Shown piece by piece: positions 36,844 to 49,788 of a DNA stretch of 64,000 bases (position 1 is the first letter of the stretch; every line of letters starts with the position of its first letter). The notes under the pieces are model-generated. The model saw only the letters and a list, made by a program, of their open reading frames with translations. It ran no database searches and was not told where the DNA came from. Source of the DNA: Clostridia bacterium (GTDB taxonomy: Bacteria; Bacillota; Clostridia; Christensenellales; Aristaeellaceae); the NCBI GenBank assembly GCA_017512985.1, contig JAFWEJ010000012.1, positions 62,001 through 126,000 on the forward strand, in the 5' to 3' direction. The position numbers and the translations under genes are program-made.

Positions 36844-37365
36844 ATGAAAAAGATTCTTGTTCTGTCCCTAGCGCTTCTGCTGGCACTGACGCTCGCTGTT
36901 CCCTGTGCGCAGGCGAAACCCCAGGACTTCGTTGGCAAAACCATCCCGGATTTTACAGTGAATACTCTGAGCGGCGAATCATTTACCCTTTCGGAATCCC
37001 TGAAAACCCACGACCTGGTGGTGATCAATTTCTGGGCAACCTGGTGCCACTGGTGCATTTATGAATTCCCCTTTGTGGAAGAAGCATGGGAGCAGTATTC
37101 CGACCGGGTGGACGTCATCGCGCTTAACGTATGGGATGAGCAGTCAGATGACAATGCGCTCAGGCAGTGTATTGAGGAAAACGGCCTGAAATTCCCCGCC
37201 GGCCGGGATACGTTCAAGCTGCTGGACGGCATGGGCGCTGAAGGCATCCCCACGACCCTGGTCATAGATAAAAATATGTGTATTGTGTTCGCGGAGAGCG
37301 GCGCCGCTTCTTCAACACAGGAGTTAACCGAACTGTTTGACAGCCTGCTTTCTCCTGCCACATAA
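36844..37365 (+). CDS. Secreted TlpA/ResA-like thioredoxin-fold protein
   Basis: A 173-residue protein with a signal peptide (MKKILVLSLALLLALTLAVP, cleavage near AQA-KP) and a thioredoxin fold: DFTVNTLSGESFTLSE, VVINFWATWCHWCIYEFP with redox pair WCHWC, and the cis-proline loop GIPTTLVID. TlpA/ResA proteins reduce disulfides outside the membrane. AAGGAGA precedes the ATG. It converges on the CotH gene across a terminator. Since the peptide at 39,045 has two cysteines, a role in its maturation is possible, but the opposite strand argues against one operon. Confidence 0.88.
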   Translation: MKKILVLSLALLLALTLAVPCAQAKPQDFVGKTIPDFTVNTLSGESFTLSESLKTHDLVVINFWATWCHWCIYEFPFVEEAWEQYSDRVDVIALNVWDEQSDDNALRQCIEENGLKFPAGRDTFKLLDGMGAEGIPTTLVIDKNMCIVFAESGAASSTQELTELFDSLLSPAT

Positions 37366-37448: not shown

Positions 37449-38987
37449 CTATTTATGCCATACGCCGTTCAGGAAATCGATCCTTCTTTCAAGCCAGTGC
37501 GCAAACTGCTCCGCGGATTCCGCCTCCGACTTGCAGGCAAAGGCTTCCCTGTTCAGTTCGTAATCGAGCGGAGACTTGTCTCTCATGTTGCTCCAGCGCT
37601 GATAATTTCTCGTGAATGCCGCTTTATACTTCCTGCTGTCGGAACGGATCTGCTCAACCGCCTCGCCGAACACTCCTCTGTCGTAAAGATCCGTCCATTT
37701 CCGGGCGATCATTTCCGTGAACCATTCCTGCCGCATCAGCACTGTCAGCCACGGGTTGATCGCCTTGTACTCATGGTTAACGTCGTCCACCACGTTGGCA
37801 GCATGGAATCCCCGCGCGTTCTCAATGACATAGCGGTTCCCCATGGCTGAATCGAAATCCCAGGGCGCTTCAAACCGCAGTTTTTTATCTCCGTCCCCGC
37901 TCAGATCAGCGCTCATGTAAAAGCTGGAATAGTAAATGTCCGGGTCGCATGTGATCTCGCTCAGGATATACATGTCCGCAAGGGACTGAACGTCGACGAC
38001 AGCCTCAACGGCTTCCCGGGGCGTCCTTGACGACGGTACGGTATCTGAATAATCAGCGGTCATTTCCAGGGCTTTCCCGTCGTAAGCGGCGGAATACATG
38101 ATGACGTATGCGTTGGCAACAAAGTCCCGGATCGTGTCGCGCTGTTTTTCAGAGCGGATATTGCTCTTGATCGTGAATCCCACAACATCTTTTTCATGTC
38201 CGGGATTCGTGCACAGCGGCGTAAAGGGTTTCGCTTTTCCGGTGCCGTCAAACGGAATCAGCGGCGCGTAATTGTTGTAATCAATGGTGAATCTGTGAAG
38301 GCTGTCTTCCAGTCTGTAATACGCGTCAAATTCCAGCAGGTAACCCACGTCCGGCCCGGTCTCTTCCTTTTGGGGCTCCGGTACGTTCACGCGTCCACGG
38401 GCTGCCTCCTGCCGTTCCGCCAGGAGATATACTCCCCAGTATTGGCCATTGATCTCCACCTCGACCAGCTCACAGTCAGAGCAGTAAAGGCTTTCCCCCA
38501 GGATTTTGCGCCCCAGTTCAAAAGCCGTCTTGTTCCGCAGCATGGAAAGGTCTTTGTATTCCGCCAGCAGAATCCAGTTTTTGAATGCCTGTCCTTCATT
38601 GAGCCCGCCAAGGGACTGCTTTTCCGTGAATTTGATCCGCAGCGGCTTTTTCTCATAGCTGGTCGTCCAGTTGCCCCGGACTTTGACCTGCGCCGGATTT
38701 TTGTTGACAGTCACTTTCCCGTCTGTTCCGGTATAGGAAACAATACAGTCGACATAATAGGGCTCGGGAGGAATCTCATATCCTTCCGTCCATGTGGCAA
38801 TTTCCGCGGAAACATTGCCCTTCACCGGTTCCGCCGCGAAGCGCGTCCCTTCCCTCCGGTCGACGGTCCTGACAGAGACCAGGGGCATCAGCCGCTTCGT
38901 TGTATTGCCCGCCGCCTGCGCGCCGGCACAGCAAAACATTACTGCCGCCGCAATCAGCGCAGCCCGGAATGCTTTCGTATGTCTCAT
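37449..38987 (-). CDS. Secreted CotH-kinase family protein
   Basis: A 512-residue protein with a signal peptide (residues 1-25, ending AGAQA-AG). The CotH pattern is plain: VKVRGNWTTSYEKKPLRIKF, FKNWILLAEYKDLSMLRNKTAFELGRKI, VEVEINGQYWGVYLLAERQE, GYLLEFDAYY and late PWDFDSAMGN. CotH proteins are atypical secreted kinases; Bacillus CotH phosphorylates coat proteins on serine. It is the last gene behind a radical SAM enzyme and a 60-residue peptide, which suggests that the peptide is its substrate or ligand. It contains no dockerin, unlike many rumen CotH proteins. Confidence 0.9.
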   Translation of the reverse strand: MRHTKAFRAALIAAAVMFCCAGAQAAGNTTKRLMPLVSVRTVDRREGTRFAAEPVKGNVSAEIATWTEGYEIPPEPYYVDCIVSYTGTDGKVTVNKNPAQVKVRGNWTTSYEKKPLRIKFTEKQSLGGLNEGQAFKNWILLAEYKDLSMLRNKTAFELGRKILGESLYCSDCELVEVEINGQYWGVYLLAERQEAARGRVNVPEPQKEETGPDVGYLLEFDAYYRLEDSLHRFTIDYNNYAPLIPFDGTGKAKPFTPLCTNPGHEKDVVGFTIKSNIRSEKQRDTIRDFVANAYVIMYSAAYDGKALEMTADYSDTVPSSRTPREAVEAVVDVQSLADMYILSEITCDPDIYYSSFYMSADLSGDGDKKLRFEAPWDFDSAMGNRYVIENARGFHAANVVDDVNHEYKAINPWLTVLMRQEWFTEMIARKWTDLYDRGVFGEAVEQIRSDSRKYKAAFTRNYQRWSNMRDKSPLDYELNREAFACKSEAESAEQFAHWLERRIDFLNGVWHK

Positions 38988-39044
38988 ACTGCTGTGCCTT
39001 CAGTGTTCTTTAGATCTGCAATCCCTGTTTCGCACTTCCGCCAA

Positions 39045-39227
39045 TCAGTCGTCGGAAACATACCCGCATACTGTGCGGTCCGCGTTCATTACATCCACAT
39101 ACCTTGTTTCGCACTTCCACCAGTTGGTTGATGCCTGGTCGGTCAGGCCCGACCCGGAAGCAACCACTGTTTCCGTGTAGTCGAAATCCAACAGTTCCGC
39201 TTTCGGTGTTACATACTCCTTTTTCAT
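39045..39227 (-). CDS. Candidate radical-SAM-modified precursor peptide (60 aa)
   Basis: A 60-residue peptide with a leader-like N-terminus (MKKEYVTPKAELLDFDYTE; the K-x-Y-x-x-P-x-x-E pattern is common in small Clostridia peptides) and a distinct C-terminal part rich in Ser, Thr, Trp, Tyr and Cys. The putative core contains NWWKCETRYVDV and ends CGYVSDD, with cysteines at 39 and 54. AAAGGAGAAG lies just before the ATG at 39227. It sits 72 bases after a radical SAM/SPASM gene and before a CotH gene, and has its own promoter. The RiPP precursor role is inferred from size, composition and neighbours. Confidence 0.75.
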   Translation of the reverse strand: MKKEYVTPKAELLDFDYTETVVASGSGLTDQASTNWWKCETRYVDVMNADRTVCGYVSDD

Positions 39228-39255
39228 TTTCTTCTCCTTTCGTCTATATAAGTGC

Positions 39256-39286
39256 TTTATACGCTGCCATATGAAGGATATGTCAA
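39256..39286 (-). promoter_or_regulatory. Promoter of the peptide gene
   Basis: On the minus strand TTGACA (39286-39281), 19-base spacer, TATAAA (39261-39256). The spacer is 2 bases longer than ideal, but both boxes are near consensus. It would give the peptide far more transcript than the enzyme gene upstream, as is usual for precursor peptides. Confidence 0.6.
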
Positions 39287-39299
39287 CCCGCACCTATGC

Positions 39300-40445
39300 T
39301 CATTCGCATTCCGGTATTTTCATTACCCCATGCCGGGTATAGTACCGGACTGTTTCACACAGTTCAGTCGGCTGCCTGCCGGGTTCGGCGTATCGGAGCA
39401 TTGACGCCGTGCAGATGCTGCAAACGCTTCGGTAAGCGCAGCCCTCGCACTCCGGAACCCGGGGCCAGTTTTCCGCCTCACGGTTGATCCTGGCCCACGC
39501 CTCCTTAAATCCTTCCCTGATGGGATCCGCATGGATGACGTTCAGTCGGTTGCAGGGCGTCATCGTTCCCTTCCAGTCCATGACAAACGCTGAACGTCCG
39601 CCTCCACACCGAAGGCCGTACTGCGTACACTCATGGGAAGGACCGCCGACCGGAGGGAGCCTGTCAGGATCGATTTCCTTTGTTTCCCGGCCAGCCAGCT
39701 CGTTCATAAGCCTGTAAATACGGATGTATTGGTCCGCATCTATGCTGTCCTCCTGCCGGGATCTCCCTGTTTCCTCCCGGGGTGCAAAGAGGTTGGTATT
39801 GACGACGAGGCCTTTATCCAGGCTCTTTCCGAGACGCACGGTTTCCAACACGTCCTCGCCAAGATATCGGTTCGGCGTCACCGTCAGATCAATGTTGAGG
39901 CCGGCGTCCATAGCTTTGCGGATGTTCCCGGTCACAGTATCAAAAGCAGGCTGCCCGGTCACCCGTTCATAGACGTCATTGTTCCATCCGTACAGCGTGA
40001 TCTGAATTGCCGCGGGCTTATGCTGCCGGAAGAACGCGATCCTGCGGTCATCCAGCAAGTATCCGTTGGTCATCACGGAAACGGTGCAGCCCAGGCTCTG
40101 CAGATACAGGAACAGCTCGTCAAATCCAGGATAGGTCAGGCATTCTCCTCCGGTCAGGGATGCATACAGCATCCCCGCTTCCCATGCCTGGCGCATCAGT
40201 CCTTTCCAGGTATCTGTCGAGAGGACTTTCCGGCCCGACAGCTGGTCGGCGTCCAGATGGACATAGCACATTTTGCAACTGAAGTTGCACAGCGGCGTCA
40301 GCTCAAACTGACCGGAGAGCGGGATACCCTTTTCCCTTGCTTTGACTTCCAGATAACGGGAGAAAGTTCTGAAATGCTGCATCTGTTTCCCGTTCTGCCT
40401 GCGAAGATCTTCGATATACTCAAAGCCGTCCAAGTGCACCTTCAT
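39300..40445 (-). CDS. Radical SAM/SPASM peptide maturase
   Basis: A 381-residue enzyme. The radical SAM 4Fe-4S motif is CNFSCKMC (C53, C57, C60), with the glycine-rich SAM contact LTGGECLTYPGF. The C-terminal SPASM domain has cysteines at 273, 280, 298, 333, 336, 342, 345 and 363, enough for two auxiliary clusters. Such enzymes cross-link or epimerise ribosomal peptides or activate partner enzymes (anSME, PqqE, streptide and sactipeptide types). About 50 residues before the radical domain could hold a short leader-binding region. It has its own promoter at 40,489 and the candidate substrate 72 bases downstream. Confidence 0.92.
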   Translation of the reverse strand: MKVHLDGFEYIEDLRRQNGKQMQHFRTFSRYLEVKAREKGIPLSGQFELTPLCNFSCKMCYVHLDADQLSGRKVLSTDTWKGLMRQAWEAGMLYASLTGGECLTYPGFDELFLYLQSLGCTVSVMTNGYLLDDRRIAFFRQHKPAAIQITLYGWNNDVYERVTGQPAFDTVTGNIRKAMDAGLNIDLTVTPNRYLGEDVLETVRLGKSLDKGLVVNTNLFAPREETGRSRQEDSIDADQYIRIYRLMNELAGRETKEIDPDRLPPVGGPSHECTQYGLRCGGGRSAFVMDWKGTMTPCNRLNVIHADPIREGFKEAWARINREAENWPRVPECEGCAYRSVCSICTASMLRYAEPGRQPTELCETVRYYTRHGVMKIPECE

Positions 40446-40488
40446 TCACTCGTCCTTCAGCGCTTATTCAGTTCATCATTTCATAGTT

Positions 40489-40517
40489 ATTTTATACTGA
40501 ATCCGATCGTTTGTAAA
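40489..40517 (-). promoter_or_regulatory. Promoter of the radical SAM cluster
   Basis: Minus strand TTTACA (40517-40512), 17-base spacer, TAAAAT (40494-40489), 44 bases before the radical SAM start. It is the only clear signal in the 300-base gene-free stretch 40,446-40,746; nothing else is seen there. Confidence 0.65.
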
Positions 40518-46308: not shown

Positions 46309-49300
46309 TCACCTGAGTACAAGCTTCAGCCGGTTAGGCAGTTCCGTGCCTTCGTTCCAGGTGTATTCCATGCTCTGTGTCATCCCTTTCAGCACGGTAA
46401 GCGCAAGGCCGTCGCCCGCGGAGGCCATGTCATAGCGCGGCCCGGCATAGAGAAGCGTCCATTCCGCGTTTTCTGTCTGCGCCGAGTATTCGCATACTGC
46501 CTGTACACGCGGATTCTCCAGCGCGGGCACCAGCAGCTGCATCGTTTCCTCAAAGACCAGCTGCACACGGTTTGCTTGCTTCGGGGCAACCTGGTTCCTG
46601 GCGCACCAGTCCTCAATCCTGCCCGCCATGCCCAGGAAATCGTAATCGCGGCTTTCAATGTCCAGCTCCAGTACCTTAAGCCTGCGCACAAAGCGCCGGG
46701 TATTCTCCCTCAGCGGATGGTCAAAAACCTGTTCCGGCGATCCGTCTTCGTAAATCCCGCCCTCATCCATATAGAACACACGGTTGGATATGGCCCTGGC
46801 GAAGTTCATCTCGTGGGTAACGATCATCATCGTCTTTCCACTCTTTGCCAGGTCCCGGATCACAGCCTGCACCTCGCCCACCATCGTGGGATCCAGGGCG
46901 CTGGTAGGCTCGTCCAGCAGGATTACGTCCGGGTCCATGGCCAGCGTCCGCGCGATGGCGATCCGCTGTTTCTGCCCGCCCGAAAGCTCATCAGGATAAT
47001 TCAGCGCTTTTTCCGCGAGGCCGACCATCCGCAGCAGCCGCATGCCCGTATCGTAAGCCTCCTGTTTTGACCTGCCGAGAAGATCCATCGGGGCCATCAT
47101 GATGTTCTCAATCACCGTCCGGTGGCCGAACAGGTTGAAATTCTGGAATACCATGCCCATCTTCCGGCGGACCTTGTTGATGTCACACCCGGGATCGGTA
47201 ATTTCCAGGCCGTCCACCCAGATCCGGCCCGAAGTGGGTTTTTCCAGCAGGTTAATGCAGCGCAGCAGCGTGCTCTTTCCCGTGCCGGAAGGGCCGATAA
47301 CGGAGATCACGTCGCCGTCGCGGATTTCAACGGAAACATCCTGCAGCGGGGTGACGTTCGGGTATTCCTTTTTCAGATGCTCAATTCTGATCATCTGTCT
47401 GTCCTGCACCCTCAACGGTTGCGGAGCCGTTACAACCGTCTCCGCTTCCTTTCGGTTGATCTCACCGCCGACGAAACTCCTGCCGCTGGCAGTCGTCGGC
47501 GGTTCGTCCCCCTTCAGGATATCGGCCGGTTTGCGGCGCCTGGGATCGAAACTGACGCTGATCCGGCTCACGAAGAACCCGATCAGGCCCTCCAGTACAA
47601 AGTAGATGATGGTAACGGCGATCAGCGGGAAGAACGCCTCATAGGTGCGGCTTCGTACAATATCGCCCATCTTGGTCAGGTCCTGTACGGCAATGTAGCC
47701 TACGATCGCCGTGGCTTTGATAAGCCCCACGATTTCACCCTTGTAGGCGGGCAACACATGCGGCAGCGCCTGGGGCAGGATAATCCTGAAAAATGTCCTG
47801 AGGTTGGAATATCCCAGCGCGTAAGCCGCTTCATACTGGCCCTTGTCCAGTGCGCCCACGCCCATTTTCAGCAGTCCGAACACCGATGACCCGAATGTCA
47901 GCGTGAATCCCATAACCGCCACGGCAATACCGCTTATGGACACGGAGCCGAAGATCACGTAATAGAAAATCATCAGCAGCACGACCATGGGCATCCCCTG
48001 GATCAGCCACATGCAGAACCGGGTGATGAGGTTGGCCGCGGGGTTTCCGTTGCGGCAGAGCATAAATACAGTGAAGCCGAGCAGCGTACCGAGCAGGATT
48101 GTCAGCACCGTGATCAGCAGCGTTGTCAGTATCCCGTCCACAAACAGCCGCCAGCGGCCTTCACGGACAAAAGTCTTGTTGAAGCTGGAAACAATACTGT
48201 CCGGGAAGCCCCGGCTGTTTTTCTCCGGGCCGGAATCCGCGGTCTGCGCCAGGCTGTCCTTCAGCACCACCATCACCGTTCCGCCGGAATAATAAGGCGC
48301 GGAGAAATTCACGCTCTCACGGCGTTCGTCGGTAATGGTGATCCCCGCGGCGGCAAGGTCCGCCTTGCCGGACTGGACGGCAGGCAGGATCCCGTCAAAG
48401 TTCATCACCTTGATTTCAAGTCCGTATCCGCAGGCCTCGCAGAACCGGGCGGCCAGGTCAATCTCCGCGCCGACGATCCTGTTGCCGCGGTAATAGGTCA
48501 TGGGCACATAGTCGCCCTCCGTGGCCAGGGTCAGGACGCCCTTCGGCGCCGGAAACGCGTCGTAGTCCGGCAGCGTCTTCTCTTCCTCCGGACCGTTTGT
48601 CCACTTTTCGATAATCTGTTCCAGCCCGCCATCCGCCTTCAGGGAGGCGAGCCATGCGTCCAGTTCCTCCAGCAGCGCTTCCCCTTCGGTTGTTTTGGGC
48701 AGCACAAAGCCGAACTCAAAGGTGTCCATGTATTCATCCGGCACGGCCAGCCGCGGGTTTTCCCTGCAGAACTGCCGCGCCGCCGGTTCGTCCACGGCAA
48801 ACCCGTCGATTTTGCCCGCCTCCAGGGCGGCAATCAGGTCGGCCGCGGTATTGATATAGACAATCTCCGCCGCAGGCAGCGCCTTCCGTACAATGGCGTC
48901 GAACGTCGTGCCGGTCGCGGCGCCGATGCGCTTTCCGTCAAGCCGCGCAAGCTGCCCGTTCGCCGCCGCGGAAACCGGCTGTCCCCCGTCGCGCACCATG
49001 GCGGTGATCTCAACGGTAAACAGCACGTCGGAAAACGGGATGGATTCCTCCTTTTCCTCTGTGTAAAACAGGTTGGACATAATACAGTCGATGCTGCCGC
49101 CCTCGGCGGCGGGTATGATTCCGCCGAAGTCATAAACCTTGAGCTCCAGCTTTGCCCCGATCCGGGCGGCGAAACGGCGGGCCAGCTCGATATCGTAGCC
49201 TGCCAGTTCCGTTCCGATGTAATAGGAATAGGGCATCACTGTGCCCGTCGTGCCCACGCGCAGGGTAAACGCCGGGTTTTCCGCTTCCGGAATCTCCGGC

Positions 49301-49788
49301 ATGGTCTCCTCACCGCGGGTCACCCAGCGTTCGTACATGTCGTCCAGCGTGCCGTCCGCCCGGAGTTCCGCGATAAAAGCGTTCAGTCTGTCCTTCAGCC
49401 CGGAAATCGGCGAAACGGGGGAAATGCCCACGGCAATTCTGTTTGTGGCGTAATTATCTTCCAGCAGGCGGACCCCGTCAAACCCATGCTCAATGGCAAA
49501 CTCCATTTCGCGCCGGGCATTGACGCAGGCGTCCACACGGCCGTTCGCCACGTCCAGGTACGCCAGGAATATATCGCTGTAGGGAATCAGCGTTGCCTGC
49601 GGATAATCCTGCTTCAGGCTGGCTTCCGCGGGCGTATTGAGGCCTACGGCAATGCTGATTCCGGGCTGCGCAAGCAAGTCCAGTGAGGTGACCGGCAGCT
49701 TCCCCTGCTCTGCGGATCCCGCCGGAGCGAGAAACGGCGCAGCGGCCAGAAGCACGCTCACAACCATGCAGGCCAATCGTTTCATCAT
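46309..49788 (-). CDS. One-polypeptide amino-acid ABC importer (binding, permease, ATPase, GHKL-like tail)
   Basis: A 1,159-residue protein with signal peptide (1-26) and, in order: a lone second half of a periplasmic binding protein family 3 domain (31-160), a complete family 3 domain (173-398), a lone first half of such a domain (416-512), a His/Gln-type permease (540-750) with the EAA loop EAAYALGYSNLRTFFRIILP, and an ATPase (799-1038) with Walker A GPSGTGKST (832-840), LSGGQ (935-939), Walker B VILLDE (955-960) and H991. A 118-residue tail (1042-1159) resembles an anti-sigma/HATPase_c_2 module (VQLVFEETMQLL, GDGLALTVLKGMT). It should import polar amino acids. Fusion of all parts is unusual. 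Confidence 0.88.
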   Translation of the reverse strand: MMKRLACMVVSVLLAAAPFLAPAGSAEQGKLPVTSLDLLAQPGISIAVGLNTPAEASLKQDYPQATLIPYSDIFLAYLDVANGRVDACVNARREMEFAIEHGFDGVRLLEDNYATNRIAVGISPVSPISGLKDRLNAFIAELRADGTLDDMYERWVTRGEETMPEIPEAENPAFTLRVGTTGTVMPYSYYIGTELAGYDIELARRFAARIGAKLELKVYDFGGIIPAAEGGSIDCIMSNLFYTEEKEESIPFSDVLFTVEITAMVRDGGQPVSAAANGQLARLDGKRIGAATGTTFDAIVRKALPAAEIVYINTAADLIAALEAGKIDGFAVDEPAARQFCRENPRLAVPDEYMDTFEFGFVLPKTTEGEALLEELDAWLASLKADGGLEQIIEKWTNGPEEEKTLPDYDAFPAPKGVLTLATEGDYVPMTYYRGNRIVGAEIDLAARFCEACGYGLEIKVMNFDGILPAVQSGKADLAAAGITITDERRESVNFSAPYYSGGTVMVVLKDSLAQTADSGPEKNSRGFPDSIVSSFNKTFVREGRWRLFVDGILTTLLITVLTILLGTLLGFTVFMLCRNGNPAANLITRFCMWLIQGMPMVVLLMIFYYVIFGSVSISGIAVAVMGFTLTFGSSVFGLLKMGVGALDKGQYEAAYALGYSNLRTFFRIILPQALPHVLPAYKGEIVGLIKATAIVGYIAVQDLTKMGDIVRSRTYEAFFPLIAVTIIYFVLEGLIGFFVSRISVSFDPRRRKPADILKGDEPPTTASGRSFVGGEINRKEAETVVTAPQPLRVQDRQMIRIEHLKKEYPNVTPLQDVSVEIRDGDVISVIGPSGTGKSTLLRCINLLEKPTSGRIWVDGLEITDPGCDINKVRRKMGMVFQNFNLFGHRTVIENIMMAPMDLLGRSKQEAYDTGMRLLRMVGLAEKALNYPDELSGGQKQRIAIARTLAMDPDVILLDEPTSALDPTMVGEVQAVIRDLAKSGKTMMIVTHEMNFARAISNRVFYMDEGGIYEDGSPEQVFDHPLRENTRRFVRRLKVLELDIESRDYDFLGMAGRIEDWCARNQVAPKQANRVQLVFEETMQLLVPALENPRVQAVCEYSAQTENAEWTLLYAGPRYDMASAGDGLALTVLKGMTQSMEYTWNEGTELPNRLKLVLR

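Follow-up and report, generated by a model that had tools for sequence, protein, structure and literature searches.

Among radical S-adenosylmethionine (SAM) enzymes of ribosomally synthesized and post-translationally modified peptides (RiPPs), SkfB is a thioether former, and SuiB makes a Lys-Trp cross-link and has an N-terminal RiPP recognition element (RRE). For lasso peptide clusters, excerpts of published work give YxxP as a known leader motif (PMC12710340), report HPr kinase, PqqD and nucleotidyltransferase as frequent in ruminal clusters (PMC7533575), and describe phosphorylation of the C-terminal Ser of precursors by HPr-kinase homologues (PMC8498205). Here we analyze three neighbouring genes of a Clostridia bacterium, encoding a radical SAM/SPASM enzyme, a 60-aa peptide and a CotH-family protein, within a stretch of 64,000 nucleotides (the window; G000:C5:62001-126000) from an assembly, G000, of 2.63 Mb in 17 contigs that is 89.67% complete. 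All three genes were found as a first-pass annotation had described them. The enzyme gene comes first, followed after 72 bases by the peptide gene and after a further 57 bases by CotH, all on the minus strand. We conclude, with a probability of about 0.75, that the enzyme and the peptide belong to a large radical SAM RiPP family as a pair that stands alone and whose partners would act in trans, and that CotH is separate. The tempting three-part pathway is thus taken apart, and the recurring part is a radical SAM peptide family with a leader-binding domain that is often fused to a kinase-like protein. The features of the region are as follows.

39300..40445, minus strand: radical SAM/SPASM enzyme P0002, 381 aa (PF04055, 1.4e-19)
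39045..39227, minus strand: precursor peptide gene P0001, 60 aa and stop (orthologues in loci L049 and L092; in L084 cut by the contig end)
39159..39227, minus strand: predicted leader, residues 1-23, with Y5xxP8, F15, Y17 and V21-V22-A23 (from family position frequencies)
39048..39158, minus strand: predicted core, residues 24-60, with C39 and C54 at a spacing of 15 (from family spacing)
39256..39286, minus strand: promoter-like TTGACA-19-TATAAA between the enzyme and peptide genes (by eye)
40489..40517, minus strand: promoter-like TTTACA-17-TAAAAT before the enzyme gene (10/12 matches)
38990..39052, minus strand: out-of-frame relic of a second precursor core, overlapping the last bases of the intact peptide gene
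37449..38987, minus strand: CotH-family protein P0003, 512 aa, with a signal-peptide-like start by eye, a neighbour judged to lie outside the pathway (PF08757, 3.5e-33)

Pairing of enzyme and precursor across genomes

The enzyme was detected at E ≤ 1e-20 in 18 of 100 genomes (G000 counted), at 27 places in total, and a scan of public genomes returned at least 430 related places, mostly in rumen and gut Clostridia according to the record titles. We examined 102 loci, namely 78 kept from public genomes, 22 stretches of relatives and two of G000; repeated enzymes in 13 of them leave 89 distinct loci. A precursor was called at a leader-profile score of at least 7 bits within 2.5 kb of the enzyme. 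With this profile, whose seed of 27 relatives' leaders includes some of the same DNA as scored loci, precursors were found in 88 of the 102 loci, in 76 of the 89 distinct loci and in 65 of the 76 distinct public-genome loci, and scores of at least 12 bits in distinct loci fell 101 times near the enzyme versus three times far from it. The family precursors have a leader of the kind YxxP...F.Y...V-x-A|S and a core that usually carries Cys, so that the RiPP hallmark of a conserved leader and a variable core beside the enzyme is present in those 76 distinct loci. G000 itself holds a second pair, in which an enzyme 51% identical to that of the window is directly followed by a 64-aa peptide, with no adjoining CotH; the second peptide shares 58% identity with the window peptide across leader residues 2-27 and has a Gly/Cys-rich core. 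The RiPP-like enzyme and peptide of the first-pass annotation are supported by a recurrent pairing, a conserved leader, mostly variable Cys-bearing cores and a likeness to SkfB and SuiB, whereas its proposed genome search for the peptide beside SPASM and CotH genes upheld the order of peptide and enzyme and not that of all three genes.

The window peptide had no match in NCBIfam or Pfam (to E 1) or in PHROG (to 0.001). It behaves like a true gene in sequence comparisons, with orthologues that keep its pattern and with the nonsynonymous rate (dN) below the synonymous rate (dS) in comparisons involving the window. Its identity to the L049 peptide is 73% over 60 columns (L049 read beyond its stop), and the window, L049 and L092 have in common the leader pattern, W-W-K-C-E-T-R and both Cys; L049 and L092 keep LTDxAxTxWWKCETRxVDV, in which W36-W37 are retained, and Y43 is not. 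The peptide dN/dS values are 0.17/0.34 between the window and L049, 0.24/0.53 between the window and L092, and 0.21/0.24 between L049 and L092 (0.30/0.22 for the leader alone). The window, L092 and L084 all have the TTGACA-19-TATAAA ahead of the peptide gene, which in L049 differs at a single -35 base. Thus, of the separate promoters assigned earlier to each gene, a conserved candidate stands ahead of the peptide and a promoter-like one ahead of the enzyme, but none was found just before CotH; the number of promoter-like sites in the region is not above that in shuffles.

Across 98 precursors, the leader positions are occupied by Y in 99%, P in 100%, F in 89% and V or I at -3 in 89%, with A at -1 in 70% and S at +1 in 66% around the predicted cut. 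YxxP occurs in 97 of 99 distinct precursors, and the commonest letters are KKxYETPxAEKLEFDYxDQVVAS. V-x-A fits the -3/-1 pattern of signal peptidases, and the window leader would accordingly be cleaved after A23. On the core side, Cys is found in 96 of 97 cores and Trp in 47 of 97; the Trp/Tyr/Cys-rich end noted in the first-pass annotation is a property of the window peptide, and family-wide it holds for Cys but not for Trp. Exactly two Cys occur in 50 of 85 cores, a group of 12 with a fixed core being left out. In all 50 the spacing is 8-19 (random mean 21.9, maximum 33) and in 32 it is 13-16 (random mean 6.7, maximum 15), the commonest value being 15 (13 of 50), as for C39 and C54 of the window; the core sequences are related by kinship, so these comparisons with 2000 random draws give no probability. 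The clustered spacing points to Cys as the working residue.

The fixed-core group shows the reverse of the usual pattern. Twelve precursors (in L056, L060, L061, L103, L106, L107, L108, L110, L115, L119, L120 and L155, with L108 the most diverged) share the nearly fixed core GDVGRGRGRGGGCDGVPYHRN.RTFSSGRNSGC under varied leaders.

Upon examination of the enzyme, the CxxxCxxC motif was invariant in 25 of 25 aligned sequences, as were six SPASM-type Cys, C280-x12-G-x4-C298 / C333-x2-C336-x5-C342-x2-C345. The Pfam SPASM model reached E 0.15, below its cut-off, and the last Cys pair is CX2C, where SPASM domains have CX3C. Between the window and L049 the enzyme dN/dS is 0.04/0.24. SkfB is both the nearest sequence in the PDB (1.4e-26) and the first Foldseek match (1.8e-14) of the AlphaFold model (predicted local distance difference test score 89.3; first 30 residues of low confidence), with SuiB also among the first folds (template modelling score 0.63, 15% identity). 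None of the best 25 of the 63 matched NCBIfam models was over its cut-off, and P0002 fell far below the curated cut-offs of the skfB, AlbA and PapB family models. We favour thioether formation at the two Cys, from the core sequences and by analogy with SkfB. That no thioethers form, and that the enzyme instead makes C-C or C-O cross-links at Trp or Tyr or epimerises the core, with the two Cys paired as a disulfide, is a possible but distinctly less likely chemistry, which would suit the SuiB-like fold and the W36-W37 kept in L049 and L092 but not the relative rarity of Trp among the cores or the nearest sequence being SkfB.

The CotH neighbour and its junction

The first-pass annotation placed CotH in the pathway, as a secreted kinase binding or phosphorylating the exported peptide. 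We searched for it with a CotH profile in the 102 loci (89 distinct), with PF08757 in the 18 enzyme-bearing genomes, by orthologue search in 61 genomes and by junction search in 45 genomes of the genus, and on these results we rejected it as a pathway member. CotH was present in one of the 89 distinct loci, the window itself, and the profile recovered it in 12 of 12 control loci (eight different genes, four of them P0003 orthologues), so that its absence from the loci is no blind spot. By eye, 16 of the other 17 enzyme-bearing genomes have no CotH on the enzyme's contig, many of these contigs being short, and in G044 the nearest CotH lies ~138 kb from the enzyme. The two parts occur apart in both directions: orthologues of P0003, 69-80% identical, are found in G036, G001, G023 and G007, all four without the enzyme, and the close enzyme-peptide pairs of L049 and L092 are without CotH (the L084 sequence is cut at this point). 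CotH genes are moreover common in these genomes, with nine in G000 and 70 matches across the 18 genomes, which makes one chance neighbour less surprising. A single unit in which CotH phosphorylates or binds the exported peptide would agree with the common strand, the short gaps and a possible co-transcription with the peptide, but given the one occurrence in 89 loci, the positive controls and the separate orthologues, we hold it to be very improbable.

Between the intact peptide gene and CotH lies the relic of a second precursor core, identical in 51 of 63 columns to L049, 56 of 68 to L092 and 44 of 59 to the window core; its score against L092 is 87, the best of 1000 shuffles being 33. The relic runs straight into CotH, homology to the CotH orthologues sets in 5 to 8 bases ahead of the ATG, and CAGTATG, which the precursor tail shares with the start of CotH, may mark the crossover point. 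A strong hairpin (-31.2 kcal/mol) and then a T run come after the peptide gene in L092, and L049 has nearly the same sequence (a shorter folded piece, -7.1 kcal/mol); this terminator-like hairpin is absent in the window. The promoter scan found none just before the window CotH, and its orthologues seem, by eye, to have one. Since no promoter was found just before CotH in the window and the hairpin is absent, CotH may be transcribed with the peptide.

Among the 45 genus genomes searched, G035 has the peptide side of the junction only, G036, G023, G001 and G007 have the CotH side only, and none of the other 44 joins the two sides. In G036 and G023 (L080, L082) the P0003 orthologue is ~2.4 kb from deoC-ileS, and the window has the same neighbourhood with CotH inverted. 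With CotH absent from the other loci, its orthologues apart and the junction seen in no other genome searched, CotH looks like an accidental neighbour, outside the pathway, from a one-off rearrangement, probably a lineage-specific recombination into the tail of a duplicated precursor that brought it behind the peptide. With a single assembly, a fault at this join stays conceivable, though the decayed state of the relic speaks against one.

Two further genes of the window were noted. At 36844-37365, convergent with CotH, is a thioredoxin-like gene (AhpC-TSA/Redoxin), nearest to ResA but below its cut-off, and at 46309-49788 a 1159-aa open reading frame (ORF) combines the solute-binding, permease and ATPase domains of an ATP-binding cassette (ABC) transporter in one protein.

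Recurrent partners and a window copy without them

Partner genes were counted with our own profiles, at cut-offs of E 1e-3 for kinase and PqqD and 1e-5 for S26-like, ABC and CotH. In the 89 distinct loci we find PqqD in 70, a kinase-like protein in 55, an S26-like, signal-peptidase-like protein in 47, an ABC transporter in 41 and CotH in one, and the kinase and PqqD are fused in 33. The fused protein has a C-terminal PqqD domain (residues 288-359, PF05402, 4e-15) and a P-loop, recognised by eye, and its only sequence match in the PDB is TfuB1, a lasso protein (E 7e-4). Matches to the PqqD part of the profile occur in 14 of 18 enzyme-bearing genomes versus 7 of 82 others (Fisher p 6e-9). NCBIfam lasso PqqD models were matched below cut-off, and the PF14907 nucleotidyltransferase appears in fuller clusters. 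Blautia sp. MSJ-9 (L137; an isolate, to judge by its title) carries a cluster of this family. The recurrent kinase-like partner of this family is not CotH but a weakly HprK/ScmC-like protein, often with a PqqD domain. Separately, NCBIfam shows that a gene close to that of the radical SAM enzyme in L053 (5306-6787) combines a helix-turn-helix (HTH) domain with a UDP-glucose dehydrogenase-like enzyme, and such fusions occur, by similarity, in the fuller clusters of L051, L054 and L057.

From this family we derive the following mechanism. The peptide would be made as a leader (residues 1-23) and a core, the YxxP leader being recognised, probably, by a PqqD-type RRE, which is encoded nearby in most family loci and often fused to the kinase-like protein. 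The radical SAM/SPASM enzyme would then modify the core, with thioether cross-links from its two Cys, C39 and C54, as the most likely outcome, a signal-peptidase-like protein would cut the leader after V-V-A, and the product would leave through an ABC transporter as encoded in fuller clusters. For the window pair, the partners do not adjoin and would act in trans.

None of the PqqD, kinase-like, S26-like and ABC partners was found within the 16-kb window locus. A PqqD search of G000 gave a sole match, a stretch in a radical SAM ORF that we take to be the SCIFF maturase, which was rejected as RRE partner. An RRE inside P0002 was likewise rejected, since, as judged from secondary structure only, the N-terminal part of the model ahead of the barrel consists of two helices and shows no winged-helix pattern. 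The window groups with L084, L092 and L049 in one clade of the enzyme tree (100/100); L084 is cut, and in the three members with sufficient flanking sequence PqqD is absent within 4 kb. The genomes of the three members other than the window do carry a kinase-PqqD gene: G035 in the fuller cluster L051, RGIG6889 in L091 together with an S26-like gene, and RUG13460 ~5 kb away, beside another enzyme (L092).

More broadly, 14 of the 100 enzyme rows have enough flanking sequence to reveal a PqqD within 4 kb and yet show none. A single clade of such RRE-less enzymes was rejected, since the 14 rows need ten parsimony changes, eight of them forced by well-supported branches; none of 500 shuffles (mean 13.3) needed as few as ten, which indicates that the rows are partly clustered. 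They come from nine genomes, of which seven have a PqqD match elsewhere or further off in the cluster, RGIG2510 being searched at its locus only, and none was found in G000. Since PqqD is present elsewhere in most of these genomes, we propose that pairs of this kind rely in trans on a fuller cluster. G000 fits this proposal least well, but the RRE may lie in the tenth of the genome that its assembly lacks. That the pair instead works without any RRE, the N-terminal helices of the enzyme recognising the leader, is in our estimate rather unlikely but to be taken seriously: G000 yielded no RRE, the enzyme dN/dS is low and the 14 rows required repeated changes, but seven of the nine genomes have PqqD after all, and the first 30 residues of the enzyme model are of low confidence. 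Service of satellite pairs in trans is a directly testable idea. G044, 97% complete in two contigs, has four enzyme copies (C1:2149106, 2157276, 2254535, 2819703) and one kinase-PqqD match, and would be a good test bed.

The missing partners, the adjoining relic core and the lost hairpin could also be read as signs that the window pair is a decaying remnant without function; this we regard as improbable, because the reading frames are intact, dN is lower than dS in the enzyme and peptide comparisons with the window, and the promoter-like spacing is conserved.

Several observations weigh against a stand-alone pair served in trans within one RiPP family. By the leader profile 13 of the 89 distinct loci have no precursor (among them L130, cut by a contig end, and L069, with a diverged leader), and Cys is absent from one core. 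Against HprK-related models the kinase part reaches just 6e-6 to 9e-3, far below cut-offs, with the Pfam HPr kinase matched once (0.006, below cut-off) and the fused kinase-PqqD forms without a Pfam kinase match; the S26-like protein reaches 40-42 bits versus the signal-peptidase cut-off of 51.85 and has no significant Pfam match. The names of the partners are therefore less firm than their pattern. In addition, the kinase-PqqD profile finds nothing in G000 (at its 89.67% completeness), yet matches 32 other genomes, the RRE-less rows are somewhat clustered on the enzyme tree, and the CotH join is known from one assembly.

Comparison with known systems

Of the maturases, those of SkfB type share with P0002 the nearest PDB sequence, the first Foldseek match and Cys-bearing cores, but the NCBIfam skfB model scores 49.5 against a cut-off of 300 bits, and the sequence comparison was one of enzymes. 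Ranthipeptide maturases of PapB type also combine a radical SAM/SPASM enzyme with Cys-containing precursors, with the PapB model at 35.1 against a cut-off of 340. SuiB of streptide is among the first folds, but its N-terminal RRE appears to have no counterpart in the P0002 model. The SynChlorMet cassette is matched by two components, the kinase-like partner (ScmC, 3.7e-11 in L067) and the enzyme (ScmF, 6.8e-13; ScmE, 7.3e-11), at scores far below cut-off (ScmC 42.9 versus 125 bits; ScmF 48.7 and ScmE 41.6 versus 400); given these matches, a radical SAM enzyme with a kinase-like partner is not without precedent.

The Firmicutes lasso clusters (paeninodin, pseudomycoidin) resemble the fuller clusters of this family in the YxxP leader, PqqD, an HprK-like kinase, the PF14907 nucleotidyltransferase and an ABC transporter. 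The lasso traits of YxxP and a PqqD RRE are widespread in the family (97 of 99 precursors; 70 of 89 loci), the PqqD RRE being absent from the window locus. Unlike in lasso clusters, the radical SAM enzyme is central here, PqqD is often fused to the kinase, and precursors rarely end in Ser (8 of 98), so that the target of the kinase, if any, differs from that in lasso systems. Inspection by eye of the ORFs of L053, L054 and L057, over their first 100 residues, revealed neither a lasso cyclase nor a B2 protease, no model search being made. In the literature, within a coverage that left out preprints and most subscription papers, no relevant paper joined radical SAM, CotH and RiPP, or CotH with either, and none joined radical SAM, PqqD and an HprK-like kinase (with or without a signal peptidase) in a RiPP; the excerpts of PMC12710340 and PMC4289311 contain no system with YxxP or an HPr kinase and a radical SAM precursor.

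A bolder and rather speculative view is that of an unnamed RiPP class, in which a lasso-type chassis of YxxP leader, kinase-fused PqqD, nucleotidyltransferase, signal-peptidase-like protease and ABC exporter serves a radical SAM enzyme, one peptide being both cross-linked and phosphorylated or glycosylated, and stand-alone pairs are satellites that borrow the RRE, protease and exporter. If true, satellite pairs would add new products while using one fuller cluster. Overall, as far as the libraries and papers searched extend, the family is a new form of radical SAM RiPPs on a lasso-like chassis, with the SynChlorMet cassette as a partial precedent.

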